This document shows positions 10,020 to 58,295 of a DNA stretch of 64,000 bases, piece by piece. The translations under genes and the position numbers were made by a program. The notes under the pieces are model-generated. The model saw only the letters and a list, made by a program, of their open reading frames with translations, was not told where the DNA came from and did not search any database. Positions within the stretch are counted from its first letter, which is position 1; each line of letters starts with the position of its first letter. Origin of the DNA: Hericium rajendrae (lineage: Eukaryota; Basidiomycota; Agaricomycetes; Russulales; Hericiaceae); the NCBI GenBank assembly GCA_033439255.1, contig CM065889.1, positions 1,550,001-1,614,000 of the forward strand. The letters are read 5' to 3'.

Positions 10020-10110
10020 GCAAAGCTCGACGGGTATCTCCAAGTCATCCGCTGAGTGGTTAACAGTTTGGAACCAGGAGGTACTTGACCCGGCGGCTCA
10101 CCTTGGTCGT
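10020..10110 (+). repeat. tRNA-Leu/Ser-like segment within the arm
   Basis: GCTGAGTGGTTAACAG resembles a class II tRNA box A and GGTACTTGACCC a degenerate box B about 30 nt downstream. A cloverleaf cannot be drawn convincingly. Copies lie at 39690-39775 and, inverted, at 32150-32235 and 57905-57985. It could be a SINE head or chance similarity. Confidence 0.3.
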
Positions 10111-10302
10111 CTTGTATGTATCTAACTTGCTGAGCTGGCAGACTAATTTACTTATAGGTCTCTAAATCTGATACCAACTAAGGTATATTGAAGCTTATCA
10201 AAATGATATTGATAGCTGCTTCCAGATGAGGCCTTCTGAGCTATGCTAGCCTATCTGCCTAGTTGAAAATCAACCAATTATCATTATTCTAATGATCTTG
10301 AG

Positions 10303-10925: not shown

Positions 10926-11214
10926 CATCTGAGAAATTTGAATTTGACATAGCTGCAGGTTACATTATAGGTGCTATTATTGAGCTATCAGAGCTATGAA
11001 GTTTGCTTATCCAGCTATGTAGAGCTATGAGAGCTATCATAGCCTACAAAGCAGACAGTGTGACATTCATAGGGTTATCATAGCCTCCATAGCCTGTAGT
11101 CTGATATACATAGGACTATCATGATTAACAAGGTGTGCTATGGCTACTATGATGCCTATGATTACTACCACAAGTCAGATAAGCACCAGATATTACAAGT
11201 CAGAATTTATCATA

Positions 11215-12230
11215 TTAAATTGCAATAAATCTACTACCATACATATGTAAGCTAGTCGAGCTACTGCATAGGGCACAGGATGCAGAGGGCATGCAAGTCA
11301 CCGTGGAGGGTGCAGGTGCAGGTGCAACAACAGTGTGGGCACACAAAAGACAGCACGTGCACACAAAAGGTGGCGTAGCATGCATGAATGCTGGCACAGA
11401 GGGCACAGGGGTAGGCATGGACCGTGCACAGCATACATGGTCCATGCATGGCAAGCCGGACCATGTGTAGCTGCGTGTGGGTGACCATGCCCACAAATGG
11501 AGTCAGGGCTGCCGTGAATGCGCGCAGGTTGCGTACATGTGCATGGGACATTGCGCATGTACGCAGAGCATCTGGAGGGCACGGGGTGTTGAGCAGGCAT
11601 GCGGGAGCATGTGCACATGCAGGGCATTGTAGGCAAGTGGCATTGAGTGTGAATGCTGGGTGTCGTGCATGCATTGTTGTGGGATGAGGTCTTGCAGTGC
11701 CACTATGCGCTGGTATCCTGTGTGCATGCAGAGGCAGAGCTGGGCATGTGCGGGTGATGTCGGGCACATGTGGGTGTCGAGCATGTGCAAGAGGCCTGGA
11801 GCGGGCGTGCAGGACATTCTGCATGCACAAAGAGGCACTGTATGGCACGTCATGCATGTGTGGTTGTCGTGCATCTGTGCAGGTCATTGCGCACACATGC
11901 AGGGCATGTTAAGTTGAGCAGGTGTAGGGGCATACATGCAACCAGGCGTGGCATGCATGTCTGGGGTGTTGTGAGCAGGTGCGGGGTGTTGTGAGTAGGT
12001 GTGGGGGCTTGAGCGCGTGGACGGGACGTTGCAAGCATGCACGGTGTTGAATGCGAGCACGAGGCCTTGCGGGGATTGAGGCGAGCATGCAGGGTCGTGG
12101 CCAATAGGCATGAACAATGTCCAAGTCCCATTGCCATGGCAATGGGACTATGGCACATGCACATGCATGGATGTGGGGCATGGGCGATGACATGGCCCAT
12201 GGCTCACTTGTCATTATTTGCTCACTCATC
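11215..12230. other. TGCATG-rich block of E2 copy a; contains the empty site of the exonuclease transposon
   Basis: GC-richer sequence packed with TGCATGC, GTGCATG and GGGCAT words. Overlapping ORFs on both strands reflect low stop density. The copy in E2 b continues on both sides of the exonuclease transposon: the phrase around GGACATTC at 11812-11819 is the unoccupied form of the site duplicated as GAACATTC at 41324-41331 and 55410-55417. No gene supported. Confidence 0.7.
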
Positions 12231-36743: not shown

Positions 36744-38697
36744 ATTAGAAGCATCATCATCTCTGTTTAAATCAGGATGTATAATATGAATATATTGCTA
36801 CAAGCTGCCAAGTGTCACAAAGCCCCTCCGACATGTGGGAGTCAAGGGTTGTGGGCAGACAAATATACAAGGTTTGTATTGCTTTTGGTGAGGTGGTACC
36901 ATTATAGCAAAAAAATCAGTCAGAAGTCTCTGCTTCAATTATGCAATCTCAATACTTGGGGGAAGTGGACTGATACTTTGCACAGCAAGATGATTCTTAT
37001 TTTATTGTGAGTTATTTAATGAAGATGTATACATAAGTAAAGAACTAGAGTGTATTAAATGAGTAGAGATCAACATAGTTAGAAATGAGTAAATTGGTGA
37101 AGAACTGATAGACTTACATGAAGGTCAGTGATGTCAAAAGGAGAAATCTCAATTTTATACTGCATTTTTCAAGTTCAGCACAGAATGAGATGTAAGTAGC
37201 ATGCCTGAAATGTGGTCAATTAGTAGAGTTCAATGCATTTTAGAATAAGTAAATCAGTTAAGGTCAAGATTCTGGGTAGGAGATTTCAATTTTGAGCCTC
37301 GGGTTTCAAGTTCAGTACAGGCTTAGACTAATGAAGTATGGCTAAGAAATATTTAATTAGTAGATTTCAATGCATCTTAGAACAAGTGAATCAGTAGAGA
37401 ATTGAGGGACTTATCTCAAGATCAAGATAATGATGCTAGGAGAAAATCTCAATTTTGAGTCCTGATTTTTGAGTTTTGGACAGACTGAGGCCTATATGAC
37501 ATGTCTGGAAAGTGATTAATCAGTATACTTCAGCACAATTTAGAATGAGTGAATCAGTGGAGAACTGAGGGACTTACCTTAAGGTTAGGCATACTAGAGG
37601 GGTAATTCCAATTTCGAGTCTTGAATTTTGAGTTCTGAATGGCCTGGGGCCTACATAGCATAGCTAGAAAGTGATTAATCAGTACAGTCCAGTTCAATTT
37701 AAAACAAGTGAATTGGTGAAGAAATAAGGGACTCACCTTAAGAACAAGATCCTGAGGGAGAGATCTCAATTTTGAGTTTTGATTTTTGAGTTCTAGACAG
37801 AATTGGACATATGTAGCATGTCTGGAAAGTGATTGATTAGTGTATCTCAGCTCAATTTAGAATGAGTGAATTGGTGAAGAAATGAAGGACTTACCTCAAG
37901 ATCAAGATCTTGAGGGGGAGATCTCAATTTTGAGTCTTGATTTTCAAGTTCTGGACAGAATTGGACATATGTAGAATGTCTGAAAAGCGATTAATCAGTA
38001 CATTCCAATGCATTTTAGAATGAGAGAATTAGTAGAGAAATGAGAGACTTACCTCAAGATCATTTGGATAATGATAATTGGTTAATTTCCAACCAGGCAG
38101 ATAGCCTAGCATAGCTCAAAAGGCATCATCTGAAAGCAGCTGTCAATATGGTTTTGACAAGCTCTAATACATCTTGATTGGTGTCAGATTTAGAGACCTA
38201 TAAATAAACTTGATGGAAGAGGGCTGATGCTTTGCACAGCAATACAATTCCTTTTTCATTGTTAGTTATATTTAGAAACAGTGCATAAATGATGTCAAGT
38301 CTTACTGGTCAGATTGATTATAACTCTCTATAAATTCTCTAGCTACCTCAAGGTCAAGATCTTGAAAGGAAGATAATCTCAATTTTGAGTTTTGATTTTT
38401 GAGTTCTAGATGGACTGGGGCCTATGTAGCATGTCTGAAATGCTGGTAATCAGTACATTCCAGTGTATTTTAGAACAATTAAATTGGTCAAGAACTGTTA
38501 GACTTATCTCAAGGTCAAGATCTTGGGGGGGAGATCTCAGTTTCGAGTTTTGATTTTCGAGTTCTGAATAGTATGGGGTCTATATAACATGTCTGAAAAG
38601 CAATTCATTAGTACATTTCAGCCCAATTTAAAACGAGTGAATCAGTGGATAACTGAGGGACTTACCTCAAGGTCAAGATCTTGGAGGGGAGATCTCA
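36744..38697 (-). repeat. Flank of the transposase relic and 158-160-bp units, no gene
   Basis: 36744-37030 is probably the decayed 5' part of the transposase element. From about 37040 minus-strand intron/exon-like units follow with donors near 37112, 37410, 37569, 37729, 37889 and 38048, mostly 159-160 bp apart. 38214-38430 repeats the flank sequence of E2 (GGGCTGATGCTTTGCAC), and two further units lead to 38697. Confidence 0.65.
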
Positions 38698-40438
38698 GTT
38701 ACGATTCCTTAGAATCGTTTACTCTATACTGCCTTTTCATAGTGAAAACGACACCAAAACGATGACTATGCCCATTAGGCAGTTGGCTTATATAATCACA
38801 CATCTTCAATCTAACGAGTTTGCAGGTTCAATTTCAGCTCTGGCCAGACTTTTTCTTTTACACTTTGTTTACTGTAACTTGGTCAGTTCTTGACCAATTC
38901 ACACATTCTCAAATGCACCAGAATCTACTCATTTATCGCTTTCTAACCATATATTATGCATCTTGATCCATGCAGATCTTGCAGAATGCAAAGCATTCCT
39001 GTATTTTTTCCCCTAGTATGCTTGATCCTCAGCTAGCTCAGTCAGTTCTTGACTGATTCACTCATTCTTAGATGTATCAGAATTTACTCATTCATTGCTT
39101 TCTAGCCATATTTTATGCATTTTGATCTGTGCAGAACTCGTAGAACATGAAGTACTTCTGTATTTTTCCTCCTAGTATGCTTGATTCTTAGTTATCTCAA
39201 TCAATTCTCCACCAATTCACTCGTTCTCAAGTGGATCGAATACTACTCATTTATAGCTTTTGAACCATATTTTTTGCATTTTGATCCATGCAGAACTCAT
39301 AGAATGTGAAGCACTTCATCATGGTACAGCTGTACCATGGTTGTGATCACATGAGCACTTCACCATGGTACGGCCGTACCATGGTGGTGATCATGTGATG
39401 ATTACATAATCAAAACTCGGTGGTGAAGTGTGAGTTCTCTTGAGTTTGCAAGTTCAATTCCAGTTCATGCCAGACTTTTTTAATATTTTTTAATACTAAG
39501 AATAATATAATCAATGAGCAATTAGCATTAGTACAATGTCTACTCTTATAGTATATTATAAGTACAGAAATGCCTAGAAATCTATGATTTTGAAGACTGA
39601 TTATATAATCAAAATTTCAGTTTTGAAGCACCAGCAGTAAAGTCTTGCTTTCTCATGAGCTTTACATCCTGCATGCTTGTCATGTTGGCTGCAAAGCTCG
39701 ACGGGTATCTCCAAGTCATCCGCTGAGTGGTTAACAGTTTGGAACCAGGAGGTACTTGACCCGGCGGCTCACCTTGGTCGTCTTGTATGTATCTAACTTG
39801 CTGAGCTGGCAGACTAATTTACTTATAGGTCTCTAAATCTGATACCAACTAAGGTATATTGAAGCTTATCAAAATGATATTGATAGCTGCTTCCAGATGA
39901 GGCCTTCTGAGCTATGCTAGCCTATCTGCCTAGTTGAAAATCAACCAATTATCATTATTCTAATGATCTTGAGGTAAGTCCATCAATTCTCTGCCAATTC
40001 TCTTGTTCTAAAATGTGTTCAACTCTACTGATTAATCGCTTTCCAGCCATGCTACATAGCCCCCAAACCATCCAGAACTCGAAAATCAAGACTCGAAATT
40101 GAGATTACCCCCTCAAGATCTTGACCTTGAGGTAAGTCCTTCAATTCTTCACCAATTCTCTCGTTCTAAAATGCGTTCAACTCTACTGATTAATCTCTTT
40201 CCAGCCATGCTACATAGCCCCCAAACCATCCAGAACTCGAAAATCAAAACTCGAAACTGAGATCTCCCCCCCAAGATCTTGACCTTAAGGTAAGTCTGGC
40301 AGTTCCCCACCGATTTAATTGTTCTAAAATGTGCTGGAATGTACTGATTAATCACATTTCAGACATGCTACATAGACCCCAATCTGCCCAGAACTCAAAA
40401 ATCAAAACTCGAAACTGAGATCTTCCTTTCAAGATCTT
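38698..40438 (+). repeat. Second copy of the 9024-10925 arm
   Basis: Nearly base-for-base the same as 9024-10925: tRNA-derived segment (box B near 38826), 165-bp units, CCATGGTACGG palindromes at 39320-39386, tRNA-Leu/Ser-like segment (39690-39775) and 158-bp units, ending with CAAGATCTT at the E2 insertion. It has one 158-bp unit fewer, and the palindrome arms differ: 39365 lacks the long 56-bp form. Confidence 0.85.
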
Positions 40439-41650
40439 CATCTGAGAAATTTAAATTTGACATAGCTGCAGGTTACATTATAGGTGCTATCATTGAGCTA
40501 TCAGAGCTATGAAGTTTGCTTATCCAGCTATGTAGAGCTATGAGAGCTATCATAGCCTACATAGCAGACAGTGTGACATTCATAGGGTTATCATAGCCTC
40601 TATAGCTTGTAGTCTGATATACATAGGGCTATCATGATTAACAAGGTGTGCTATGGCTACTATGATGCCTATGATTACTACCACAAGTCAGATAAGCACC
40701 AGATATTACAAGTCAGAATTTATCATAATAAATTGTAATAAATCTACTACCATACATATATAAGCTAGTCGAGCTACTGCATAGGGCACAGGATGCGGAG
40801 GGCATGCAAGTCACTGTGGAGGGTGCAGGCACAGGTGCAAAGACAGCACGGGCACACAAAAGACAGCATGTGCATACAAAAGGTGGTGCGGCATGCACGA
40901 ATGCCAGCACAGAGAGCACAGAGGTAGGCGTGGGCCGCACACAGCATACATGGTCCATGCACGGCAAGCTGGACCATGTGTAGCTGCATGCGGGTGGCCA
41001 TGCCCACAAATGGAGTCAGGGCTGCCGTGCATGCATGCAGGTTGTGTACATGCATGTGGGATGTTGCGCATGTACGCAGAGCATCTGGAGGGTGCGGGGT
41101 GTTGAGCGGGCATGCGGGAGCATGCGCGCATGCAGGGCGTTGTAGGCAAGTGGCATTGAGTGTGAATGCTGGGTGTCGTGCATGCATTGTTGTGGGATGG
41201 GGTCTTGCAGTGCCGCCATGCACTGGCATCTGTGCACATGTAGAGGTGGAGCTGGACACGTGCGGGGGATGTCGGGCACGCGCAGGTGTCGAGCATGTGC
41301 AGGAGGCCTGAAGCGGGCCTGCAGAACATTCGGCAGTCGAGTTATAGGTGGGCATAGTTTTGTAGAAAACGAAATAATTAATTCAAAAAGAACTAAATTA
41401 ATTCGAGGGAGGGAAGAAAGGAGGGAGATCTCGACTCTGCACACTGCAGCTCGAGTTCGCGAGCCTCAAACGCTGCAGCGATACCGCGCTCGTACGTAAA
41501 AAAGATGGTTCGAACACGATAGAGATCTGATCAAAATCATTATGATGGCCGGGATGGCCGCAGATAGTAAGGTACAATTGATATCTCCGGTCCTCTGTCT
41601 ATTACGCTTATCGCGGCCCTCCAAGCTTCAACTATCAGCTTCAAGTTCGC

Positions 41651-44600
41651 TCACGCTGCGCTTGTACTGCGTCGCGCGAGTGCACGGTCCATGTCTGCAT
41701 CACATACCGACACCATCGAGCTCGTGTCACAGGAGCTCGCTCCCGGCTGGGCTCGCACTCGACGAGCCACCCGCCCGTGTATCAGCAGCGAGCCAGCGCG
41801 AAATAAGGCCTGGGTTGGCGGCGCCACGACCCTGCCCATTCCCGTTTGTCGCTCTCCCCTTTCCCTGCAGCACATCCGCTTCAGTAATGTGCCTTCGAGC
41901 AGGATGTCAGCCGGTGCAGCATGCACCTTGTCCTTGAGGGTGGGGCAGCGGCCTCGTTGTGCCGCGGGGCACGTCGCCTCGCGACAGGTAATGCAGGTAC
42001 GTGTTCTGTGTTTCTTGACTGTGACCTGCCCACCATTGCCGGGTGGTGCGTCTTGACCGTCCCGTTTCCTCTTTAGGTTTGCCGCCGTGCCAATGGAGCT
42101 GCCCGACGCGCCCATGTAGGAGAACTGCACCGCGGACTGGTGCGTGCACAGGTTGCCGAGGAGGACGTCCGTATGCCACTGCGAGACTTCGGTCAGTGCG
42201 GCACGGCGGCACGACGGGTCGAGCTGCTGGTCGAGAGTCTCATTTGCACAGACCGGGATCTGCGGCACGGTCAGGGCTTGCAGCACAAGTAGGTTCTGTA
42301 GACAGTTGTAAGCCTCGATGTTCTGCTCAATCAAATTCTCCTGGTTTCGATTGTCCAACCACTTTTTGTAGCAATTCTGCAGGTGCTCAGGTAGCTGTCG
42401 ACAGGTGGGTGGCTGTCAATGTAAAGTCAACACGAAGAGCCGGGAAGCCCACCTTGTAAAAGATTGAGACCCCATCGCAGTGGCTTGACCATTGCTGCGC
42501 AATCGAGATCCAGTTCGGTGTCGACAGCTGAGCAAACGGCCCATCCTGTCGGTGAATGAGCAATCGATAAAGTGCTTTCTCTTCGGGGGTGTGAATGGGC
42601 AGGATGGCGAAGTGCACGCCTTGCTGCCGTGCGAGGTCTGCGTGCTTGATTTTCATCTCCCATGCGTGGTCCTCGAGAAACTCCAGCATTCCGAGGCATT
42701 TTCGGACAGCATCCGATGTCGGTTGGATGCCGAACTGCTCCGAGGAGTCCTCATAATCATCGGTGTTGACCCAGCCAGCCAACGGCTGAGGCTCATCACG
42801 CACGAAGGTGTGCGTCGTCAGGTCGAGCAGGCGAGAGATGCAATTTCTTGTCCAGATGTCGAACGAGCCATTGTAGCGTGTTCCCGTGCGATTGAGGGTA
42901 CCAACCTGTGGTATGACAAGTAAGCGAGGTGCAGCGTGCGACAGCAGTGGAGCAGGTGGATGAAAAAAAAAATTGCTTACCACCAAGTTGTGACGGAGGG
43001 TGTAGTCTCGAAGGAGGCTCCATGCAAATTCGGGGGAGACATTGTAGGAGCCGAAGCGCTTGGCCAGATTCTGATGGATCCCGCCTTCAACGTTATTCGT
43101 GCCGCGGATGCAGCGATACAGCGTGAGCCCATCTTTGTCTTTCCCACGAGGGTAGTACAGGGCGACACCCGGTGGATCCGTGTAGTGGCCCATCTGACCG
43201 TGCCCCAGCGTGTTCTCGGCAGACTTCCACATGGTCTTGGTGAACAGTGGCTGGCCTGTCACTGCATCTTTGAGTGGACCAAATGTCTGGAAGACCACAA
43301 GCATCCGCGGAACGAGCTCCTCTGGTGATAGCACGAAGTGCTTCACACGGCGCCAGACCCAGTCGGGATGGTACAGCACCATTTTTTCCCATGTCGTCTT
43401 CTTCGTGGCGAGAACGGGAGCCAAGGCAGCCTTGTCCTCCTCGTCGGAGATCAAGAGCGCATCACGGAGGGCACGCAGGAATGGTCGGTGCAGTCCATAG
43501 CGAAGCGGAATCTTGAACTGGTCCATGAGATGCCAGATGTCGCCGATGACACGAGAGCGCACGGGCAATGCTGCGCCAGCAGCAGACATGGTGTTCGCAA
43601 GGGCGCATGCAGCCTGCATTGCCTCCACATCTGTCTCTGAGCCCTCCACTTTCTGTTCGATGCTGGCCTCATATGCCATGTCCATACTGGCCTCGGTGAT
43701 GGTGCATGCAGCTTCGTCCGAGGCTGCGGGTAACTCCAGACTGGGTGCATCATCACCAGTCGACAAGCCCTCAATGAAGAGGGGCTCGGGGGCTTGCACA
43801 GAGCCAGGCAATGCTGGCCTGGGCCTTGCTCTGTCCTTCTCGGCGGCAGCGGCAGCAGCTTCCCTCTCCTCGCTGTCCTTGCAGGTCTGTAGGTCCTTCA
43901 CGCAGCAGAGGACACGGCACGGTAGGCTGCTCGCAACGACATCGGAGAGGGCTGTCTCCACCCTCGAGGGCAGCAGCTCCTTGCGTACCAAGTATGCTGG
44001 AAGGAGCACCGACGTGATGTTGACGAGGATGCGGGTCTTGGTCACATTCATGCCATTGAATGTTGAGGACCGGTCGGGAGCGACAATGCCGAATGCGACA
44101 ACTGCGGAGCGGTCGCGGGACAGGAGCTTGATGGCCGTCGCAACTGGGGTTTCAGCAGTGACAGGCTGGCCAGATGCAACATGCGAGTGAGCAGACAGCA
44201 CCTCGTACAGTGCCCAGGTGGCATAGGTGTCGAGGACGGCATAGTCAATGTGAGCTTGAGATAGGACCGGGCTGTCCCAGCTGGTGCTGACGTGAATGGA
44301 TGCCTCCTTCACCATGGACCGTTGGAGGATGCGAGTGCTCAGGTCTGCGAGGCTCGTGTTTGCTCGCATCGCAAGGCCCTGCTTGTGTGCCATCGCACCG
44401 AGCTCTCGGGCACCAACAAACTGCTCCTCCTTGCCGTCGTCTTTGAAGCCACAGTCGTGGAACAGGCGCGTTAGGTCGGCCTTGATGTGGACGCCGTGTT
44501 TGACGACACGGCTCGAGCGAAGGACAACATAGAGGGCATGCGGAAGCTTCAAGACACCATCGTGGAGGTAGTCGGGGAGCTAGCAGATATAAATAAAAAA

Positions 44601-45937
44601 AAGGATCAGGAAACCTTCACCAACAGCAGCCTGTGAACAGAGCTCACGGGGATCAGATAGACAGAGTGGCTGAACACGATCGTGATCAGCACGACTCGGC
44701 CATGGATGCCTGTCTGTCGATCCACCGGCCATTCCATGTCCATCGCAATCGGGAACTCCTCGTTCTTCGGCAATTGGTGCACCGTCTCCATCAGGGCCTC
44801 CAGCCGCGAGTTCACAAGCCACAACGATCCGAGGACAAAGACCTTGAACTCAGCGGGGACGATGAGCAGCTTGAGGGATGAAGAGGGCACCCGCTCGACA
44901 TCATGCAGCAGCGCGGGGATGATCCGCTCGAGCTCGGCCTTGTCGGCCTTGGGGTTATCGGTGAACACGACCTCGGTGTCATCATGTCCGTACAGCTCGA
45001 GCGAGCGTGGGATCTCAGCCAATGTGGGCATGAACTGGTCGTGTGCCTTCGTCATGGTCAATGTCATCGCGCGGCATTCGCCAAATTCATTGACGACCGA
45101 GAGCAGGCTGCCAAAGATGGGCACACCATCGACCTTTCCGAGGTGCTTGATGACCTGAGTCGCAAGCCGCACCAATCAGGAGACAGAAAATGGTGCATGA
45201 GGAGACATGGGCCTCACCTTGAAGCTCAAGTCGAGGCACATTGCTCGACCGGTCAGCATTGACATGCGCTTGTCCATCAAGCGACCATGCTGCCGCATGA
45301 AGTTCACGTAGAACGCACTGCAGTAGGTCGACGATGGCGCGCTTCCGGCGTACTTCATCATGTCATTCCATTCCCCGAAGGTCTCATGCAGGGCAATGAG
45401 GCCGACAGAGACGGCGTCAGCATGTGAGTACACCATCTCGAGATACTGCTGGAGCAGCTGCTCCCAGCGGCGAATGTGGAATGTACGGATCATCTCTGCG
45501 AATGGGACAGGGCCGGTGCCGTGCTGGAAATTGCTGCGCAGAAGCGCCGCGAGGTCGTCCGTCAGCCCGCTGCGGTAGCTGAGGTGAAACGTGAACTGAG
45601 CAGTGAGTGCGGGTGGGATGGCATTCAGGACAGCAGGAGACCAGCTTTGATAGGTCTTCTTGCATTTGTCGTGCTGGCAGCGGTACCATTGGCCGATGAT
45701 GTAGACGTGGTCGGTCACATCGTACACATGTCGCGGACCCTTGGGGGTGGTGTAAGGCGAGAGCGTCGGGATCCCTGCTCGCACCATGTGGTGTCCCGCC
45801 ATCACACACTCTGGGCACGGGATCCGCTGGAACAAATGCGGGAACCAGATGAAGTAACGTGGCCGCCAGAACATCATGGGGTCGAGCTGGCTGCGGGTGA
45901 GCGACACGAAGAATGGGTTTTTGCCCGCTGTGTGGTA
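41651..45937 (-). CDS. C-terminal exon block: DUF6729, DEDD exonuclease, GTNNVEGG domain, Cys cluster
   Basis: Exons 45937-45218, 45154-44648, 44579-42981, 42905-42453 and 42394 to about 41651; introns of 63, 68, 75 and 58 nt with GT-AG borders; every intron is phase 0. The first exon has MMFWRPRYFIWFPHLF, the zinc-type pair CPEC...YRCQHDKCKKTY and the family's YRSGLTDDLAALLRS helix. The exonuclease follows: motif I AMDMEWP (D and E), motif II KHGVHIKADLTRL (D), motif III DYAVLDTYATWALYE (Y and D), so the DEDDy residues look intact. A long charged insertion separates this from HLMDQFKIPLRYGL, GVALYYPRGKDKDGLTLY and RGTNNVEGGIHQNL. The end holds CITCREATCPAAQRGRC. The true stop may lie upstream of 41651 if a further intron exists. 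Confidence 0.75.
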
Positions 45938-45943
45938 GAAGCT

Positions 45944-48900
45944 CCACCAGTCCCAGCTATGAAACTATATTGTGCATCAGCAGATTGCCGGAGATGTATT
46001 ACAAAAACCTCGGAAGTTGCTGGCCAGCAACTCGCACCACACATTATAATTCACTCGTATTGTAATGTCGTCGGGGCCGCTTACCGGGCCGTGCACTACC
46101 TACTGCCGCGCGCAGGGCACGCCTGCCGTCGGCACTATCTACCCGCCTGCCGTCGGCACGGCACCCGCGCCCTTCTCGGCACTGCCCCGCCCCTCCTCGG
46201 CACCGCATCCCGCTCTCGGCTACGCACCCGCCTCGGCTATGCGCCCGTGCACCTCCCGCCCTTGGCTACGCGCCTGCGCCTGCCTCCCGCCGCCGTCCCT
46301 CGCTCCCCGCCGCCGCCGCCGCTCGCTCCCCACCGCCGCTCGCTCCCTGCTGCCGCTCGCTCCCCGCTGCCCCCACCGCTTGCTCCCCGCTGCCCCCGCT
46401 GCTCGCTCCCGCTGCCCCCGCCACCGCTTGCTTCCTGCCGCTGCTGTTGCTCACTCCCTGGCACCGCCGCTCGCTCGTTGCCACGACACACGTCACCAGC
46501 GCCGCAGGCGCTGCTGCGGTCGTCGTCGCTGCACTGCTAGCGTGGTGCTACGCACCGCGCCGTGCCATCGGGCGCGCCGTTGTTAGGGCATTCTGCGTGA
46601 GCACTGGGCATCACGCGTGGGTGCTAGCGTTCCGCGGGGATGCTGGGGCCCGAGCGCGAGTGCATGAGGGTAGGGGGCGGTGTGCCGTTGCTGCACTGCG
46701 CGTGCCGGTGCCGGGGTACTGCACGTCGCGCGTGGGTGTTGCTGACCCGTCGCAAGCGTCGAACGATGCTTGGGGGTGTTGACGGCCGCGGGCACGTGAC
46801 GTGCGATGCGTAGAGGCCACAGCCACATGCGCCGGGTGTTGTCATGGGTATGGGTGCTGGCGCCACGAAAGCGCGGGTGTCGGGCGTGTGTCCACGTTGT
46901 TGTACGCGGGGGCACACGCGTCTGGGACGTCTTGTACGCGCTTCTGCACGTGTCCGGCATGTGTGGAGGTGGGTGGACGGCTATGGTGGGCCGTGGAGGG
47001 CGTGGTCGAGAGGCATGGAGCACGGCGGACGCGCAGCGGACATACCAGAGGGAGAGGGCGAGCGGAGAGTGAGGAGAGGTGTGCGAAGAGTGCGGAGGTG
47101 CGCGTGAACACGAAGAGGGAGGAGGGTGGGCAGGAAAGGGAGGAGGGTGCAGAGGGAGAGGACGAGCTGCCCACCAGCTGTGGCGCGGCTCAGAAATCGC
47201 CGAGCGGCGGTAGAAGCCCGAGAAGCCCGAGCGAGGAGGAGGAGTCGAGTTTTGGGCGGTTTCTGGACCGCATAAGACATAAATTGAATGATAGATATGT
47301 ACCTATAGCAGCATAGAATGCATCATAGAAAGGTTGAGCGATTCTCGGCCACATTAGAGTCAAGAGGGCAAACATACAGTATTATTCGGTAACCCTAATG
47401 CATAGTTCAGGTTATGCAGGCTTCAGTCCTTCGAAATTGGAGAAACGAGTTGCTCAAAACGTTTATAAAAGCTATGTACCATATATTTCTGAAAGTACAA
47501 ATATTTTGATGAAAATTTGAGACTTCGAGACTCGAAAAACTTGAAAAACCTGGCCTGAAACAACCGAAAACCATCAACCCTACTCAGATCCTATAGATCT
47601 GGGCTATCAAAAAATCTGAAAAAGTATGACTATATAGTTATGGTATGCCCCAATATATTTTAGCAGACCGATAGATGGTAGGAGGGAGTCATGCTAAGAA
47701 ATCGCGACTCGAATCGGATGTCCGGCGTGCCCGAGACGTCGATTCGAGCTCGACGCGTTTGGCAGTATTGACAAGCGCCGTTCATTTTAGACGTGCTTAT
47801 CAGTGCTTCGAGCATCGGGCACTTTCAGTGCATTCTATTCATACCAAACTTCGTATATACACTATGTCATTGTATCTACAGCTACTATATTATTTGTAGA
47901 ATTTAATAAAATTTCTACGCCTGGCAAATCATGTTCGAATTTCGGCCAGCCTCGTTCGGTGCCCTGTTCGGCAATTGCCGGTCGGTGCCACAAGGCTCGT
48001 GGCCTCTCCTCTCCTCTTCCTCATCCTCCCATCAAGCGGGGATGCTGTAGGGCTCAATAGCCCATAAACTCGTAAGTTTTTCTATTATTTTCTTGTATCT
48101 GAGCAGTTTACTGACGAAATCTTCTTATTGCAGCCCGCCAACGTGCTGACGTGGCATCGCACGCAGCCCGAATGGCACCTGCCCCCGTCCGCACATCCCC
48201 CTCCCCCCGCGCTCGCAAATGCGTATCTAGCACCACCTGAAGACCTGCGCACCCACGCAATGTGACCACCGCCCACCTGACAACGTCGCACGCGCCCTAG
48301 CAACTGCGCGCTCACACCAGACCCCCCATCTCGACCCCATCCCCATCCCCATCTTCATCCCTGCCACGCCGCATTCACGCCGACGCATTTGCGTTTGCAT
48401 GTGCATCGGCCCACCACCACGCATGCCCTATCGTGTAGCAATGCACGCGGACGCGAACGACGCCCTCAAGGCACCCTCCCCCGCCGGTTCCCGATGTCAG
48501 CTCCGCGCCCGCGCTCCAGCGCGCACATCCCAACGCATGCGCGCGCATCCCAGCCCCGTGCACACACATCCTAGCCCCATGCGCACAGATTCCAGCCCCG
48601 TGCGCGCGGATTCCAGCCCGTGCGCGCGTTTTCAAGCCCGTGCGCGCGTTTTCCAGCTCGTGCGCGCGGATTCCAGCCTCGCCCGCATGGGTCCCAGCCC
48701 GTTCCCCGTGCGCTCTCGCCGTTCCCCGCACGCTCCCGCCGTTCCTCATGCGTTCCTGCCATTCCTCGCGCGCCCCCGCCGTTCCCCGCACGCACCTGTG
48801 CCATCCGCGCGTGCCCACGCCGTGGCCCGCGGTCCGCGGTCTGCACAAGTGCATCCAAGTGCCGTGGCCCGTGCGTCCCCACGCTGTGTGCCATGGCTCG

Positions 48901-49493
48901 CGCGCTGTCCAGCCCCGTGCCCACACCCGCGGCGGATGCGGCCCGTGCAGTGGACGGCGCGGGCGCCCAGCGGCAAATGGGTGCGTAGCGCCGCGTCGAC
49001 CGCACCACGGCGCGCACGCTCTGCAGCGGGCGTGCGGCGAATAGCGCGTGCGTAGCCGTGGGGCGGGAGCGGGAACAACACGCGGAAGCGGCGGCGGGGC
49101 GGGACGGGAGGTGCCGGCAAGCGCGGGAGGAGGCGCCGGTGAGCGCGGGAGGAGGCGCCAGCGAGCGCGAGGGAAGTGCCAGCGAGCGTGGGTACGCGGG
49201 AGCGTCGGCAGGCCCGTAGCTGAGCGCAACGAGCGCGCGGCGGCGGTAATGAGCAGTAGCGACGGCGGCCGAGATCCTTATGATCTCGGCTGGTATGTTT
49301 TTTTATGCAATAATATATGTTTTGTCGTGGCCCCTGGGCTACCCCAGGTGCCGCTGCGCCGCATTATAATGCGGCTTAAGTGGACTGAATTATAATGTGC
49401 ACGGTAAGGCCCCGGGCAGCAACTGCCGGGGTTTTTGTAATACGTTTTAGGCAAGTTGCCTTATATAATGTATTTCAGTGACTGGGACACCTC
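45944..49493 (-). mobile_element. Element A: non-autonomous DNA element, 3,550 bp, 6-bp TSD
   Basis: GAAGCT (minus AGCTTC) is duplicated at 45938-45943 and 49494-49499. The two ends align as inverted repeats of about 110 bp: both have GTCCCAG, TGAAA, TTGCC, GTATTACAAAAACC-CGG and ACATTATAATTCA in the same order. Inside are GC-rich minisatellites (CGCTCGCTCCCCGCTGCC type at 46320-46460; CCGTGCGCGCGGATTCCAGC type at 48560-48700) and an AT-rich middle with a GTAAGT...TTGCAG intron-like unit near 48072-48134. No transposase was recognised; long ORFs on both strands are low-complexity Arg/Pro/Ala translations. Confidence 0.85.
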
Positions 49494-50723
49494 GAAGCTC
49501 CCGGCCTCGTAGCATGCCGGCCAGCCGCGAGGGCTTTTTTCCATCTCTGTGCGCAGCGTCGCACAGATCTCTCGATATTCTTTGGGAAGCCACGCTGGGA
49601 GTCCCGAACGTGACTTCTTCGTCTTTGCAGAAGGTGCGCCCGACGGCGTCCCAGACGGCAGTGCGACAGTTGGCGCATCGGCGGCGACAGCATCAGATGC
49701 ACTGTTGCTAGCGGCGGCAGCGCCGTCCTCATCCTCATCGTCCGGGATGGCGCGGAACTCGCCCTCGTCGTCAACCCCGTACTCGATGTCATCCGCAGCT
49801 TCCTCCCCATCCTCGAAGTCTCTTTCGCGGGTGATGCTGTGGGCACGGCTGCCATCGCCGTCGCCCAGCGCTGGGCTGCGTTGCAGCGAAGCAGCTTCCG
49901 CTGCCATCTCGTCGTCCTGGATATCCCTCGGGAGCATCTCGGGCTCGTTGTCTTCAGCTGAGAGCACAAAGATGTCAGCAGAGAGCAGCGGCAAGGGCGG
50001 CGGCCAGACGCGGCACAAAGGGTACTCACGTGTCGTGTTTGACGTCGTGCTTGTGCACGCCGGTCCTTGTCCGTCTTCGGCCACGTGCGGCTGCTGGCTG
50101 CTCTGGTGTTCTGTGACAGATGTTGCGACTGCGGGCATCACGACGATGGGCGTCGCGGGCGCTAAGGTCGGTTCCGCCGTCTCGATCTTGTCTCGTCGTG
50201 ATCGGTCGTGTCGTGTGTGCCCTCGCGGGGCTCCTCGTCGTGGGGCTGCGCGGACGCACCAGTGCTGGCCACCACAAACGGAGATACCCCCGGGACATCG
50301 CCGCTCTCGACAGGAACAGGGCAGGCTGCAGCAACGGAGCCGATGAGCCGGGGACGCATCGTGCGGGCAAGCGGAATGGATGCTCACCTTCGCGGCTCGC
50401 AGCTCTCAATGTCACCGCTGCCGTCACGTCGTTGCTTCGGGCGCGGGAATCGTTGCATGCGGCGGCGGTACTGCCGCGGTGATGTAGCGATACGCTGCGG
50501 CTGCTGCGGCTGCTCCTGGAGGAGCCGGCGAGCCGCAACGGCCTTTGCACCACAGTTGCTGGAGGAGAGGAGGGCGCGGGGAGTCAGCGCGACGGCAAAC
50601 GCGGCGAACCGCGGCGACTTCCGCGAAAAAGCGCGTCGGGTGGACGGTCGAACTCACCCTCGATCGTCTTGCTGCGGCCCCGGTTTGCGATGGTGCTGCC
50701 ACCGGACGTGCTGCTCGTCGAGT
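49494..50723 (-). CDS. N-terminal exon block upstream of element A
   Basis: Likely exons are 50723-50658 and 50557-50388 (GTGAGT and GTGAGC donors, CTCCAG acceptor, GCTGAC branch site), then a longer exon to 49494 whose start I could not fix. The last exon carries an acidic stretch (DIEYGVDDEGEFRAIPDDED) and ends SRSGLPAWLPKEYREI ... GWPACYEAGSF, the family's conserved lead into the zinc domain. Element A follows directly after the Ser-Phe codons AGCTTC. Read-through into A would end within a few codons. Confidence 0.55.
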
Positions 50724-50734
50724 CTGTGCAATTC

Positions 50735-53700
50735 GAGGTGTCCCAGTCACTGAAATACATTATATAAGGCAACTTGCCTAAAACGTATTACAAAAACCCC
50801 GGCAGTTGCTGCCCGGGGCCTTACCGTGCACATTATAATTCAGTCCACTTAAGCCGCATTATAATGCGGCGCAGCGGCACCTGGGGTAGCCCAGGGGCCA
50901 CGACAAAACATATATTATTGCATAAAAAAACATACCAGCCGAGATCATAAGGATCTCGGCCGCCGTCGCTACTGCTCATTACCGCCGCCGTGCGCTCGTT
51001 GCGCTCGGCTACGGGCCTGCCGACGCTCCCGCGTACCCGCGCTCGCTGGCGCTTCCCTCGCGCTTGCCGGCGCTTCCTCCCTCGCGCTCGCCGGCGCCTC
51101 CTCCCGCGCGCTCGCCGGCGCCTCCTCCCGCGCGCTCGCCGGCGCCTCCTCCCGCGCTCACCGGCGCCTCCTCCCGCGCTCGCCGGCGCCTCCCGTCCCA
51201 CCCCGCCGCCGCTTCCGTGTGTTGTTCCCGCTCCCGCCCCACGGCTACGCACGCGCTATTCGCCGCACGCCCGCTGCAGAGCGTGCGCGCCATGGTGCGG
51301 TCGACGCGGCGCTACGCACCCATTTGCCGCTGGGCGCCCGCGCCGTCCACTGCACGGGCCGCATCCGCCGCGGGTGTGGGCACGGGGCTGGACAGCGCGC
51401 GAGCCATGGCACACAGCGCGGGGATGCACGGGCCACGGCACTTGGACGCACGGGCGCAGACCGCGGACCGCGGGCCACGGCGTGGGCACGCGCGGATGGC
51501 ACAGGTGCGTGCGGGGAACGGCGGGGGCGCGCGAGGAACGGCAGGAACACGTGAGGAACGGCAGGAGCGCGTGGGGAACGGCGAGAGGGCACGGGGAACG
51601 GGCTGAGACCCATGCGGGCGAGGCTGGAATCCACGCGCACGAGCTGGAAAACGCGCGCACGGGCTTGAAAACGCGCGCACGGGCTGGAATCCGCACGCAC
51701 GGGGCTGGAATCCGTGCGCACGGGGCTAGGATGCGTGTGCACGGGGCTGGGATGCGCGCGCATGCATTGGGATGCGCGCGCTGGAGCGCGGGCGTGGAGC
51801 TGACATCGGGAACCGGCGGGGGAGGGTGCCTTGAGGGCGTCGTTCGCGTCCGTGTGCATTGCTACACGATAGGGCGTGCGTGGTGGTGGGCCGATGCACA
51901 CGCAAACGCAAATGCGTCGGCGTGAATGCGGCGTGGCAGGGATGGAGATGGGGATGGGGATGGGGTCGAGATGGGGGGTCTGGTGCGAGCGCGCAGTTGC
52001 TAGGGCGCGTGCGACGTTGTCAGGTGGGCGGTGGTCACATTGCGTGGGTGCGCAGGTCTTCAGGTGGTGCTAGATACGCATTTGCGAGCGCGGGGGGAGG
52101 GGGATGTGCGGACGGGGGCAGGTGCCATTCGGGCTGCGTGCGATGCCACGTCAGCACGTTGGCGGGCTGCAATAAGAAGATTTCGTCAGTAAACTGCTCA
52201 GATACAAGAAAGAATAGAAAAAACTTACGAGTTTATGGGCTATTGAGCCCTACAGCATCCCCGCTTGATGGGAGGATGAGGAAGAGGAGAGGAGAGGCCA
52301 CGAGCCTTGTGGCACCGACCGGCAATTGCCGAACAGGGCACCGAACGAGGCTGGCCGAAATTCGAACATGATTTGCCAGGCGTAGAAATTTTATTAAATT
52401 CTACAAATAATATAGTAGCTGTAGATACAATGACATAGTGTATATACGAAGTTTGGTATGAATAGAATGCACTGAAAGTGCCCGATGCTCGAAGCACTGA
52501 TAAGCACGTCTAAAATGAACGGCGCTTGTCAATACTGCCAAACGCGTCGAGCTCGAATCGACGTCTCGGGCACGCCGGACATCCGATTCGAGTCGCGATT
52601 TCTTAGCATGACTCCCTCCTACCATCTATCGGTCTGCTAAAATATATTGGGGCATACCATAACTATATAGTCATACTTTTTCAGATTTTTTGATAGCCCA
52701 GATCTATAGGATCTGAGTAGGGTTGATGGTTTTCGGTTGTTTCAGGCCAGGTTTTTCAAGTTTTTCGAGTCTCGAGGTCTCAAATTTTCATCAAAATATT
52801 TGTACTTTCAGAAATATATGGTACATAGCTTTTATAAACGTTTTGAGCAACTCGTTTCTCCAATTTCGAAGGACTGAAGCCTGCATAACCTGAACTATGC
52901 ATTAGGGTTACCGAATAATACTGTATGTTTGCCCTCTTGACTCTAATGTGGCCGAGAATCGCTCAACCTTTCTATGATGCATTCTATGCTGCTATAGGTA
53001 CATATCTATCATTCAATTTATGTCTAATGCGGTCCAGAAACCGCCCAAAACTCGACTCCTCCTCCTCGCTCGGGCTTCTCGGGCTTCTACCGCCGCTCGG
53101 CGATTTCTGAGCCGCGCCACAGCTGGTGGGCAGCTCGTCCTCTCCCTCTGCACCCTCCTCCCTTTCCTGCCCACCCTCCTCCCTCTTCGCGTTCACGCGC
53201 ACCTCCGCGCTCTTCGCACACCTCTCCTCACTCTCCGCTCGCCCTCTCCCTCTGGTATGTCCGCTGCGCGTCCGCCGTGCTCCATGCCTCTCGACCACGC
53301 CCTCCACGGCCCACCATAGCCGTCCACCCACCTCCACACACGCCGGACACGCGCAGAAGCACGTACAAGACGTCCCAGACGCGTGTGCCCCCGCGTACAA
53401 CAACGTGGACACGCGCCCGACACCCGCGCTTTCGCGGCGCCAGCACCCATGCCCATGACAACACCCGGCGTGTGTGGCTGCAGCCTCTACGCGTCGCACG
53501 TCACGTGCCCGCAGCCGTCAACACCCCCAAGCGTCGTTCGACGCTCGCGACGGGTCAGCAACACCCGCGCGCGACGTGCAGTACCCCGGCACCGGCATGC
53601 GCAGCGCAGCAACGGCGCACCGCCCCCTACCCTCATGCACTCACGCTCGGGCCCCAGCATCCCCGCAGAATGCTAGCACCCGCGCGTGATGCCCAGCGCT

Positions 53701-54471
53701 CACGCAGAATGCCCTAACAACGGCGCGCCCGATGGCGCGGCGCGGTGCGTAGCACCACGCTAGCAGTGCAGCGACGACGACCGCAGCAGCGCCTGCGGCG
53801 CTGGTGATGTGCATCGTGGCAACGAGCAAGCGGCGGTGCCAGGGAGCGAGCGACAGCAGTGGCGGGAAGCGAGCGGCGGCGGGGGCAGTGGGAGCGAGCA
53901 GCGGGGGCAGCGGGGAGCGAGCGGCGGGGGCAGCGGGGAGCGAGTGGTGGGGGCAGCGGGGAGCGAGCGGTGGGGGCAGCGGGGAGCGAGCGGCGGCAGG
54001 GAGCGAGCGGCGGCGGGGAGCGAGCAGCGGCGGTGGCGGGGAGCGAGTGGCGGCGGCGGTGGGGAGCGAGCGGCAGCGGTGGCGGGGAGCGAGCGACGGT
54101 GGCGGCAGGGAGCGAGCGACAGCGGCAGGAGGCGGGCGCAGGTGCGTAGCCAAGGGCGGGAGGCGCACGGGTGCATAGCCGAGGCGGGCGCGTAGCCGAG
54201 AGCGGGATGCGGTGCCGAGGAGGGGCAGGGCAGTGCCGAGAAGGGCACAGGTGCCGTGCCGATGGCAGGCGGGTAGATAGTGCCGACGGCAGGCGTGCCC
54301 TGCGCGCGGCAGTAGGTAGTGCACGGCCCGGTAAGCGGCCCCGACGACATTACAATACGAGTGAATTATAATGTGTGGTGCGAGTTGCTGGCCAGCAACT
54401 TCCGAGGTTTTTGTAATACATCTCCAGCAATTTGCTGATGCACAATATAGTTTCATAGCTGGGACTGGTGG
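50735..54471 (+). mobile_element. Element B: second copy of A, inverted, 3,737 bp, 6-bp TSD
   Basis: CAATTC is duplicated at 50729-50734 and 54472-54477. The sequence is nearly the inverse of element A but 187 bp longer, mainly through extra units in the minisatellites (CGCTCGCCGGCGCCTCCTCC at 51080-51190; GGGGCAGCGGGGAGCGAGCG at 53880-54120). It lies in the first intron of the exonuclease gene, five bases upstream of the CACAG acceptor. Same tips as A. Non-coding as far as I can see. Confidence 0.85.
53850..54130. repeat. GC-rich minisatellite GGGGAGCGAGCGGCGGC in element B
   Basis: About 15 units of roughly 16-21 bp; the inverse array in element A (46310-46460) is about half as long. All reading frames are open and give Gly/Ser/Ala or Arg repeats, which explains the overlapping ORFs. 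Confidence 0.85.
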
Positions 54472-54573
54472 CAATTCACAAATGCGGGCATATGCGAGGC
54501 GCGTCCGACACGTCGAAAGGGCGATCGCATCAGCGTGCGGCAAAACGGATCGTGCGCGTCGCTGATCACTTAC

Positions 54574-54724
54574 TGGCTGTGCTATCGTCGCGTTGCTCGT
54601 TCGGCGGGTTCTTCCTCGGCCTCCCGATGGGCCTCCCATTCTTGCCGGCGTCGGGCCCGTTCTTGGAGCCCTTCGGACGGCCCACAGGGCGCTTCGGGGG
54701 CTTCGGCGGTGCTGGATCCATCAT
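54574..54724 (-). CDS. First exon: AT-hook pair
   Basis: Begins MMDPAPPKPPKRPVGRPKG (either Met possible) and holds a second hook GRPIGRPRKNPP, both of the GRP core type that binds AT-rich minor grooves. Ends at a strong GTAAGT donor (54573-54568); ignoring it leads to a stop at 54566. The intron it opens contains element B. An in-frame extension upstream to 54982 exists but runs into the MITE at 54898, so it is not used as the start. Confidence 0.65.
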
Positions 54725-54897
54725 CGTTCCCAGGGCACGGGCAAAGTCGGTAGCAGTAGGTGCGGGGCGTGGGGTGCGTGTGCTGTGGGGAGTGCGAGAT
54801 CTTCTGATGTCAAAGGGAGGGCTTGACGCTGGCGGCAGGTGCTTCTCGACGACGAGTCGAACGACTCGGACTTTGCACGTGCGAGGACCGTCGGTTT

Positions 54898-55298
54898 CAT
54901 CAGGAACCTTCAAAACTTTCTGTTTGACCTGCGAGGCATCTGACAGTGTCTGCATGATCTGCAGCAGTTGCATCAGACACATCAGACACTCTCAGACAGC
55001 ATCAGCTACTCTCAGCTAGCTGCAGAATATTTGACCTCAAGATTCAAAAAAGTATCAATGCAGAATGCTTGCAGACTGATCAGAACTGATCAGATTCATA
55101 TAAATTTTAGATATTGAAAACTTTGTTGCATCTAATGATTAGAGTTGGATGACTACTATATCTGCCAATAGTTATTAACTTCAAAATATAAAATCTCTGA
55201 TCAGAAATTGTCCTCTAATTAGAGCCTGCAGCTGAATCAGGTCTTGCAGTTGATCAGACTCTGCAGGATCCATCAGAAAGTTTTGAAGGTTCCTGATG
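54898..55298. mobile_element. MITE of 401 bp with TT duplication
   Basis: Inverted tips CATCAGGAACCTTCAAAACT and AGTTTTGAAGGTTCCTGATG, TT on both sides (54896-54897 and 55299-55300). It lies upstream of the exonuclease gene's start, where the promoter is expected. Related to the 138-bp MITE at 7483 and the 261-bp MITE at 8569. Confidence 0.9.
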
Positions 55299-55417
55299 TT
55301 GTTTGGTCGCAATTGCACATGGTGAGTTCGAAGCCCGCTACAATTCAAAGTCCGCTAGAATTCAAACTCAGCTAGAGCTCGCTCAGTGCCCACCTATGGC
55401 CCGACCGCCGAACATTC

Positions 55418-57426
55418 TGCATGCACGAAGAGGCACTGTATGGCACGTCACGCATGTGTGATTGTTGTGCACCTGTGCAGATCGATGTGCACACACGCAG
55501 GGCATGTTGAGTTGAGCAGGTGCAGGAGCATACATGCAACCGGGCATGGCATGCATGTCCGAGGCGTTGTGAGCAGGTGCAGGGTGTTGTGAGTGGGTGT
55601 GGGGGCTTGAGTGCATGGACAGGACATTGCAAGCATGCACGGTGTTGAACGTGAGCATGAGGCCTTGCAGGGATTGAGGCGAGCATGTGGGGTCGTGGCC
55701 GATAGGCATGAATGATGTTCGAGTCCCATTGCCATGGCAACGGGACTATGGTGCATGCACATGCACGGACGTGGGGCATGGGCGATGACGTGGCCTGTGT
55801 GCACATGTTGTTGACGTCGTGCAGATGACGTCACGTGGTACACACATGCACGCATGCTGTAGCCTTGTGCATGCTGGTGCACGTGGAAGGAGATGGTGGT
55901 CGGAGGCATGCGCAGGGGTCGCAGCCTGTTGGAGTCAGGCATGGGGTGTACGAGCTGTGTGCAGGGCGTGGATGTGGCGTAGACAGGCCAAGGAAGGGGC
56001 GATGAGAGTGCAAAAAAGGCAGCAGGATCGTAGGATGGTAGCGCGAGGATGTGGGATCAACAGAATAAAAGATATCGAGAGTGTCGCTCGAAAAATGATT
56101 GACACTCTCTTGATTAGTACGAAAAAATGATAAGAGGCTTTTTTTTTTTACTCACCTAAGGCCCTCTAAGTATCTGCTAAAAAAACCATCCCAGCCATAT
56201 TGAAAGCCAATAGAGAATGAAAGAAATGGAAGGAAGGAGGCTGAAGGAGGAAACACAAAGGAGGGGAAGGGAGACTGGTAAAAAGGAGTGAAGTCTCGAC
56301 ATGTTAAACTCGGTGCTTCAGCCACCGAATGAGCAAAGCTTTGTTGCTCGAGCCTCAGCAAATCAAATAAACTTGTATAAATTCAATGAAAAAAAGGACA
56401 GTGATAGATTATACATTTAATTAGAATGTATGAGAACACTGTGTATCTACTGAACTGTGAATCTGTGAGCAGCAGCATCAACGTAGTAAAGTCTGGCATC
56501 CAGTCTCTGCCACAACACTCGGCAAGCACCCAGCAACCACAAATTCCGATTCCGTCTGGGATTCCTATATAAGGCTGGCACGATGCGCTTTACCTCTTGC
56601 TCTTTAACCCCCACCATCCCTTGCCACGTCAACACATTTGTTGTCATCATTTGCTCACTTGTTATCATTTGCTCACTCATCATCATCATTTGCTTACTCG
56701 TCGTTGTCGTTTGCTCATTTTATTAATTATTGTTCTCTTCGTTGTTAAAGGTACGCTGTTATTCTTAATTATCTTATAACTTATACTAATGTCTTCATAC
56801 TTATTACACTACCATGTAGTCCTACTAGATAAGCTTGATTGTTTCTTATACTGATGTCTTCAAATTGTCTTGTAGATTTTCACTTTTTTGTTAATCTGGT
56901 AAGTCTTCATATATTATCTTTGTTATCTTCTAATACTCATGTCTTTTCTTATTTGTATCTTTTGCTTTTTGTAGTCATTGTAAGTTTGTTACCTTTTATA
57001 GTTCTGTAGTAGTCTCTGTAGCTATAGTAATGTTTTGTAATGAAATTGTTTGAGTAATATAATTTATCCAATTTTCGATGTTTGTGACTGTAAGACATCA
57101 GACTATTGAATCTATAATATATTTATTTTATATGCTATTTTAGCATATTTGATAGAAGTAATATAGAGTAGATAGAAATCTTACTAGCTAGATATAATAT
57201 AATGATAGAGATATATTATATAGTTAATATAGCTTCTATAGTTATCTTATACTAGAATAACTATGACAGCTATGATAGCTTATGCTCTATGCTATGATAG
57301 CTATGACAAGCTATGATAGCTTTGCATTGTTTACTTGACTGCTATGTATAAAAGAGGACAGCTATGGACCTAGAAAAGCTATGTAGCTAATATAGTGTTA
57401 TATACCAGTAACATATTTCTCAGATG
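55418..57426. other. Right half of E2 copy b: TGCATG block, hairpin module, intron-like units
   Basis: 55418-55990 continues the TGCATG-rich block. At 56060-56150 a minus-strand module has a GTGAGT donor, a CTAAT branch word and a hairpin with GAGTGTCGCTCG / GACACTCTC arms. 56160-56700 has no feature; 56752-57010 repeats the intron-like units of 12287-12560; 57240-57400 is AGCTATG minisatellite. Confidence 0.55.
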
Positions 57427-58295
57427 TTGACCTTGAGGTAGCTATAGATTTTATAGAGATTTATAATCAATCTGACAAGTGAGACTTTACATCATTTATG
57501 TACTGTTTCTAAATATAACTAACAATGAAAAAGGAATCGTATTGCCTTGCGAAGCATCGGCCCTCTTCCACCAAGTTTTGAGTTTTGATTTTCGAGTTCT
57601 GGATGGTATGGGGTCTATGTAGCATGTCTGGAAAGCGAGAAATTAATACATTCCAGCCCAATTTAAAACAAGTGAATCAGTGGAGAACTGAGGGACTTAC
57701 CTCGAGATCGTTCAGATGATAATGATTGGTTGATTGCTCACCAGGCAGATAGCCTATCACAGCTCAGAAGACATGAACTGGAAGCAGCTATCAATGTGGT
57801 TTTGATAAGCTCTAATACATACTGGTTTGTGCAAGATTCAGAGACCTATAAAGAAAATTAGTCTGCTAGCTCAGCAAGTGAGATACATACAAGACGACCA
57901 AGGTGAGCCGCCAGGTTGAGTACCTCCTAGTTCCAAACTGTCAACCACTCAGCGAATGACTTGGAGATATCCGTCGAGCCTTGCAGCCAATATGACAAGC
58001 ATGCAAGATGTAAAGCTCATAAAGAAGCAAGACTTTACTGCTGGTGCTTCAAAATTGAAATTTTGATTATATAATCAGTCTTCAAAATCATAGATTTCTA
58101 GGCATTTCTGTACTTATAATATACTATAAGAGTAGACATTGTACTAATGCTAATTGCTCATTGATTATATTATTTTCAGTATTAAAAAACATCAAAAAAG
58201 TTTGGCATGAACTGGAATTGAACTTGCAAACTCAAGAGAACCACTGAGTTTTGATTATGTAATCATCACGTGATCAATACCATGGTACGGCCATA
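57427..58295. repeat. Inverted right arm of the outer element
   Basis: 57427-57575 is the flank of E2; 57580-57710 a 158-bp unit on minus; 57905-57985 the inverted tRNA-like segment; 58190-58295 the inverted arm end with CCATGGTACGGCCATACCAT. The inverse matches 39365-39800. After 58295 similarity to the repeats stops. Confidence 0.65.

Follow-up and report, generated by a model that had tools for sequence, protein, structure and literature searches.

We analysed a 64,000-nucleotide stretch of the Hericium rajendrae genome (contig CM065889.1, positions 1,550,001 to 1,614,000 of the forward strand; hereafter the window), in which a DNA transposon with a single detectable gene has inserted into a repeat. 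The product of this gene carries a DUF6729 zinc domain and a DEDDy 3'-5' exonuclease. The limits of the element, its terminal inverted repeats (TIRs), its target-site duplication (TSD) and the unoccupied counterpart of its insertion site are as follows.

41324..41331, left copy of the TSD, GAACATTC, exact 8 bp
41332..55409, minus strand (that of the sole gene found), entire element, 14,078 bp with the later insertions counted
41332..41355, plus strand, left TIR; the first ~80 bp are common to short gene-less copies
55386..55409, minus strand, right TIR; the last ~83 bp are common to short gene-less copies
55410..55417, right copy of the TSD, GAACATTC, exact 8 bp
11812..11819, unoccupied counterpart of the site, GGACATTC, in a paralogous repeat that aligns without a gap through the junction

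Read inwards from 41332 and from 55409, the 24-bp ends are GGCAGTCGAGTTATAGGTGGGCAT and GGCGGTCGGGCCATAGGTGGGCAC, which are identical at 19 of 24 positions and belong to the type GGC...ATAGGTG. The window repeat at 10451-12197 is an element-free version of the locus with a single copy of GGACATTC at the site. Aligned with the joined flanks of the element, it shows 90.1% identity over 1747 aligned bases, the sole gap being a single base away from the site. The 8-bp duplication, the inverted ends and the empty paralogous site give the classic picture of a cut-and-paste insertion, and all three had been correctly described in an earlier note made from the letters of this DNA. The repeat that hosts the element, which is also the source of the empty site, contains 158/159-bp tandem arrays and lies at 9024-12197, 31474-33584, 38697-41331 and 55418-58299. 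The end type recurs in the 46.8-Mb assembly: a 23-bp pattern allowing up to 3 mismatches was found at 24 places, compared with 2 for the reversed pattern, and a looser pattern at 29 places, compared with 1 for the reversed control. The end matches exceed chance. The assembly also gave 17 matches to PF20152, a protein family typical of basidiomycetes, in keeping with a basidiomycete host, whereas the 14 control genomes of that search gave none.

The gene lies on the minus strand and encodes, from right to left, AT-hooks, a middle piece, the DUF6729 zinc domain, the exonuclease, a block containing GTNNVEGG and a cysteine cluster. Its parts in the window copy are listed below.

54608..54724, minus strand, N-terminal exon with two AT-hooks (RPVGRPKGSK and RPIGRPRKN); limits approximate
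49494..50020, minus strand, middle gene part with an acidic region and KKSRSGLPAWLPKEYREI, resembling the copy at C6:715284; upper limit approximate
45218..45944, minus strand, zinc domain DUF6729/PF20499 (CPEC at 45806-45817, CQHDKC at 45662-45679), ending at the first catalytic Asp
45218-45235, minus strand, predicted first catalytic Asp (LDLSFK)
45155..45217, minus strand, intron of 63 bases directly after the first catalytic Asp, placed by GT-AG borders and frame; position identical in 6/6 copies
44615..45154, minus strand, predicted second catalytic Asp (VVFTDN, 44954-44971) and exonuclease motif I (DMEW, within 44726-44746)
44580..44614, minus strand, intron of 35 bases, placed by GT-AG borders and frame
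within 42453..44579, minus strand, exonuclease motifs II (KADLTRL, 44463-44483) and III (YAVLD, within 44220-44243)
within 42453..44579, minus strand, DxxH (GDIWH, 43530-43544) and predicted catalytic Glu (RGTNNVEGG, 43080-43106)
41651..42412, minus strand, C-terminal part with the cysteine cluster CITCREATCPAAQRGRC (41945-41995); the lower limit is the end of the open reading frame

The assembly holds six loci with this gene (13 matching stretches in all, with PF20499 found at 6 places). In the large C-terminal piece of the window protein, identity to the other copies is about 30-55%, depending on the stretch. The same order of residues was found in all six: a first aspartate (D1, in LDLSFK or its equivalent), a second (D2, in VVFTDN or its equivalent), the DEDDy exonuclease (DxE, D, YAxxD), DxxH, and the glutamate of RGTxxxEGG. 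D1 and D2 are separated by exactly 70 residues in every copy, counted across the shared intron, and DxxH and the glutamate by 150-155 residues. From these motifs, their spacing and the literature we infer a DDE (Asp-Asp-Glu) transposase core, and the likely order of strands around D1 and D2 resembles, by eye, that in the first half of an RNase H fold. The earlier note had recognised a single gene with an exonuclease and judged its DEDDy residues intact, and these residues are indeed kept in 6/6 copies; the DDE-type residues lying outside the exonuclease had escaped it.

The exonuclease sits between D2 and DxxH. When joined across one intron it matched PF01612 at 3.2e-10, compared with 7e-05, just under the cut-off, for a single exon, and a weak match to the WRN exonuclease (E 0.006) was obtained in the Protein Data Bank (PDB). 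The N-terminal zinc motifs are of the CCCC type (CPEC...CQHDKC in the window, CPAC...CPQC in the C6:715284 copy; the C6:226812 piece compared lacks that region), with a spacing unlike that of Dada-U6_DR, a member of the Dada superfamily of DNA transposons defined by Kojima & Jurka in 2013 (PMC3706591). The C-terminal cysteine clusters, CITCREATCPAAQRGRC in the window and CSKCARTDCNGVHINKAC in the C6:715284 copy, differ from the CCHC finger of Dada-U6_DR in the position of the histidine. Reading a TAG in the C6:715284 copy as a stop codon was considered and rejected; it most plausibly closes an intron (TTTTTAG). No relatives were found in the viral contigs, bacterial and archaeal genomes and phages searched.

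Inverted ends with an exact 8-bp duplication enclose the gene at four of the six loci, the window included, so that the earlier claim of a DNA transposon carrying this gene is borne out by diverged gene copies lying between the same kind of ends. The cleanest copy, at C6:715284-721823, spans 6,540 bp and is flanked by TGGAGCAT. With a profile built from the window ends alone, its pair of ends reached 34.3, whereas none of 100 shuffles exceeded 14.2 (a rough control, made by shuffling 2-base blocks). The copy at C9:144951-180572, in which the gene is in pieces, is flanked by CGACCAGA, and that at C6:226812-272121 by TCCAGATA. At this last locus, where the right end alone was known at first, a search within about 9 kb of a gene fragment had given no convincing pair of ends (2/100 shuffles equalled the best), and PF20499 revealed an N-terminal part of the gene, lying about 33 kb upstream of the closest among the other gene matches. 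A genome-wide search with the right flank joined to the end motif then located the left end through a match at C6:226804, with 1 mismatch, in the end motif and not in the duplication; the sole other match in the genome had 3 mismatches. The left end is 2.2 kb upstream of the separately found N-terminal piece and 37 kb from the fragment used in the 9-kb search.

Facing pairs of ends without the gene, 845-1191 bp long, were found on C1 (two), C2, C8 (two), C10 (two, with identical flanks) and C17/C18 (with identical flanks). Five of the seven independent gene-less copies bear a duplication: ATCAAATC, AACGAAAG, CTCGGCCA and TCCCCAAA, all of 8 bp, and TCATTTTCT, of 9 bp. Five gene-less copies with ends of the window type were compared internally, and their match to the window element is confined to ~80-90 bp per end. 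For two with ends of the C6:715284 type (C2:845939-846807 and C8:2135751-2136941), as for the pair at C6:2933844-2947658, the comparison covered the ends. The flanks are identical between C10:1660367-1661211 and C10:1673477-1674322, and between C17:109845-110880 and C18:8784-9815, which suggests segmental or subtelomeric duplication.

Taking pairs with and without the gene together, there are 15, of which 13 are independent when the two C10 copies and the C17/C18 copies are each counted once; the counts concern facing pairs, apart from eleven single ends without a facing partner from the two end-pattern searches. A duplication lies flush with both ends in 9 of the 13, being of 8 bp in eight cases and of 9 bp in one. 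For the C9 pair and the C6:226812 end, the duplication had guided the choice; leaving both out gives 7 of 11. GGC starts all 18 ends of the nine duplicated insertions, partly by construction since the search asked for GGC; that the duplication abuts GGC was not required by the search for seven of the nine.

The duplicated words of these nine insertions show no visible consensus. No transfer RNA was found at the insertion sites by ARAGORN (window and 13 loci), and no Rfam RNA at gathering score (window and 7 loci), these tests covering sites other than the flanks of C2:845939 and C8:2135751 and the left flank of C6:226812.

The window copy has itself been invaded, by two later insertions and by a repeat resembling a miniature inverted-repeat transposable element (MITE).

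45945..49493, plus strand, insertion B, 3,549 bp, with the 7-bp duplication GAAGCTC (45938-45944, 49494-49500); interrupts the gene
50735..54470, minus strand, insertion A, 3,736 bp, with the 7-bp duplication GCAATTC (50728-50734, 54471-54477)
54898..55298, MITE-like repeat, ~400 bp, high-copy, with 25-bp inverted ends CATCAGGAACCTTCAAAACTTTCTG

Insertions A and B are one ~3.6-kb repeat in opposite orientations, 97% identical over the 2.8-kb main arm. Sequence like the end of this repeat was found at at least 40 places, the window pair included, with 77-100% identity (40 of 64 candidates scored), and the MITE-like repeat at at least 39 other places with 95-100% identity (40 of 200 candidates scored). 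The inner 8.5 kb, an inverted pair with long arms, was considered as one fold-back element and rejected, being two insertions with separate 7-bp duplications. A further gene piece (EGEFRAIPDDEDED...) lies between A and B, at about 49494-50020. The outer limits given in the earlier note are retained, while the two insertions, the MITE-like repeat and this gene piece are additions to its anatomy. Since insertion B appears to lie within coding sequence, the window copy looks broken. Without the insertions, the MITE-like repeat and the extra duplications, the element would measure about 6.4 kb, near the 6,540 bp of the C6:715284 copy. Elsewhere in the window, three ~4.07-kb repeats (1174-5237, 12840-16903 and 19717-23780) are mutually 99.9% identical, one being inverted; they contain 80-bp and 122-bp tandem arrays, and the longest open reading frame touching the 12840-16903 copy is of 249 amino acids.

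The arrangement of the protein has a published counterpart. In Dada-1_LB and Dada-2_LB of Laccaria bicolor and Dada-1_ES of Ectocarpus, as described by Kojima and Jurka, a DDE and DxxH core is likewise split by a DEDDy, DnaQ-like exonuclease located between the second D and DxxH, with zinc motifs on both sides and introns in the gene (PMC3706591). The 6,540-bp copy also fits the published size range of Dada, 4,666-10,979 bp (PMC3706591). The Dada-U6, -U1 and -tRNA families of fish, Daphnia and Perkinsus share the DDE and DxxH residues and a CCCC zinc finger with our element, and the D1-D2 spacing is 68 in Dada-U6_DR compared with 70 here (PMC3706591). We therefore do not support the proposal of the earlier note, that of an undescribed class of transposon with the exonuclease in place of the usual transposase core: complete copies hold what appears to be a DDE transposase, recognised by motifs, spacing and the published description rather than by profiles, with the exonuclease inserted in it in an arrangement published in 2013 (PMC3706591). 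This is not a new transposon class. Probably it is a cut-and-paste, Dada-like transposon, whose sole protein would be a DDE transposase with DNA-binding AT-hooks and zinc domains, interrupted between D2 and DxxH by a DEDDy 3'-5' exonuclease.

Several observations weigh against this reading. The DDE core was recognised neither by profile libraries nor by PDB searches, the best Pfam match (E 0.13) being at chance level, and the likeness to the Laccaria and Ectocarpus elements rests on their published description, not on their sequences. At the level of the element, the 6-7-bp TSD of Dada is not matched by the 8 bp (eight cases) and 9 bp (one) of the nine duplicated insertions, nor the absence of TIRs in the U6 and U1 families, which have subterminal repeats instead (PMC3706591), by the 24-bp TIRs found here, nor insertion into small RNA genes by our sites, within the ARAGORN and Rfam coverage given above. 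Duplications were absent from 4 of the 13 independent pairs (C7, C1:4393413, C17/C18 and C6:2933844-2947658). The C7 gene copy has ends (2667641 and 2673901) with mismatched flanks, GACATCAG and CGGGGCTG; when an exact duplication was required there, the best pair was equalled in 56/100 shuffles. The C2 gene copy shows no ends within about 9 kb above control (25/100 shuffles equalled the best). The C9 pair, at 15.65, barely exceeds the highest of its 100 control shuffles (14.8), so that this case depends mainly on its exact duplication and on the ordered gene fragments enclosed by the ends.

Because TSD length, TIRs and target all differ from the published traits, we call the element a Dada-like variant rather than a plain member of Dada, set beside Laccaria Dada by description. 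Its TIRs, 8-bp duplications and scattered sites depart from published Dada. According to Kojima and Jurka, all Dada elements with clearly definable termini lie in small RNA genes, and the exonuclease is reported for the Laccaria and Ectocarpus families only, for which the relevant sections mention neither termini nor TSD nor target (PMC3706591); in our element all three could be defined, as TIRs, 8-bp TSDs and dispersed targets. In the text available, a later account keeps the Dada TSD at 6-7 bp and has many Dada elements targeting multicopy RNA genes (Kojima 2022, PMC8869645), and a word search of it found neither 'exonuclease' nor 'Laccaria'. Fungi have already been surveyed for Dada: a fungal Dada profile (Muszewska 2017) was used on the Marasmius oreades genome, with no multiple well-supported matches (PMC8290104). 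In the open-licence literature, outside Repbase, we found no description of the ends or duplications of fungal Dada, and no paper naming DUF6729.

The same three departures would be expected of a separate superfamily, sister to Dada and defined by TIRs, 8-bp duplications and a built-in exonuclease. We consider this rather unlikely, since a DEDDy exonuclease between D2 and DxxH, with flanking zinc motifs, is the very trait of Laccaria elements already placed in Dada (PMC3706591). A passenger gene, in elements moved by a hAT, KDZ or MULE transposase with duplications of 8 bp or a similar length, seems very improbable. We know of no DUF6729 or exonuclease in Zisupton/Dileera (KDZ), which have a different transposase family. 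These elements do make 8-bp TSDs and are present in basidiomycetes (PMC12730594), and TSDs of about 8 bp are also made by P and hAT (PMC3706591). Yet each of five diverged gene copies is bounded by its own version of the common end type, a pairing that fits a transposase and its substrate. No other transposase was found in six minus-strand open reading frames of the window and seven further ones of the element and insertions, none of the element frames scanned matched a MULE or hAT transposase profile of Pfam, and the seven plus-strand frames of at least 110 amino acids in the cleanest 6.5-kb copy gave no Pfam family above cut-off.

The exonuclease domain might itself be the recombinase nuclease, the remaining protein only binding DNA, as the intact DEDDy residues in 6/6 copies and the lack of a profile match for the DDE core would allow. 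This is extremely unlikely. To our knowledge, DEDDy exonucleases do not make staggered target joints. The invariant residues outside the exonuclease have the spacing of a DDE transposase, and recent transposition is seen in Dada families described as lacking the exonuclease (PMC3706591). The exonuclease is most readily interpreted as an insert within the transposase, because D1, D2, DxxH and the glutamate are present in the same protein, in an arrangement published for Dada. A comparable combination occurs in KolobokD, a transposon of the C/DxxH DDE type that also encodes a 3'-5' exonuclease; that enzyme is of the DEDDh type, TREX/exuperantia-like (PMC9587614), in contrast to the DEDDy type with YAxxD found here, and Kolobok makes 4-bp TTAA duplications instead of the varied 8-bp words of our element.

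If the element is Dada-like, AT-hooks and zinc domains would bind the DNA, the DDE site (D1 in LDLSFK, D2 in VVFTDN, DxxH in GDIWH, E in RGTNNVEGG) would cut at the GGC ends, and the 3' element ends would be joined into the target with an 8-base stagger. The exonuclease may trim 3' ends of DNA during excision or donor repair and spare the element ends once joined, since GGC directly adjoins the duplication on either side in 9/9 duplicated insertions; such exact junctions are a weak argument that it does not nibble these ends. Provided that the remaining reading is right, we give an even chance to donor-side trimming at excision, the role that we prefer for it. More speculatively, the elements with the exonuclease could form a distinct lineage with real TIRs, 8-bp duplications and wide insertion, in which the exonuclease would serve as an indispensable second active site (two nested RNase H-type folds in one chain) processing 3' ends at excision, while RNA-gene targeting would be a derived trait of part of Dada; this we propose tentatively, as a possibility with the odds against it.

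Published Dada elements are a prime example of DNA transposons with fixed insertion sites in small RNA genes, and their best-studied families lack inverted repeats. The Dada-like lineage described here combines a built-in exonuclease with well-defined ends, 8-bp duplications and dispersed sites, and the gene-less copies of this lineage offer ready substrates. Two questions thereby become testable, the role of the exonuclease and the origin of RNA-gene targeting, and DUF6729 can be given a likely function, that of the zinc domain in a transposase.

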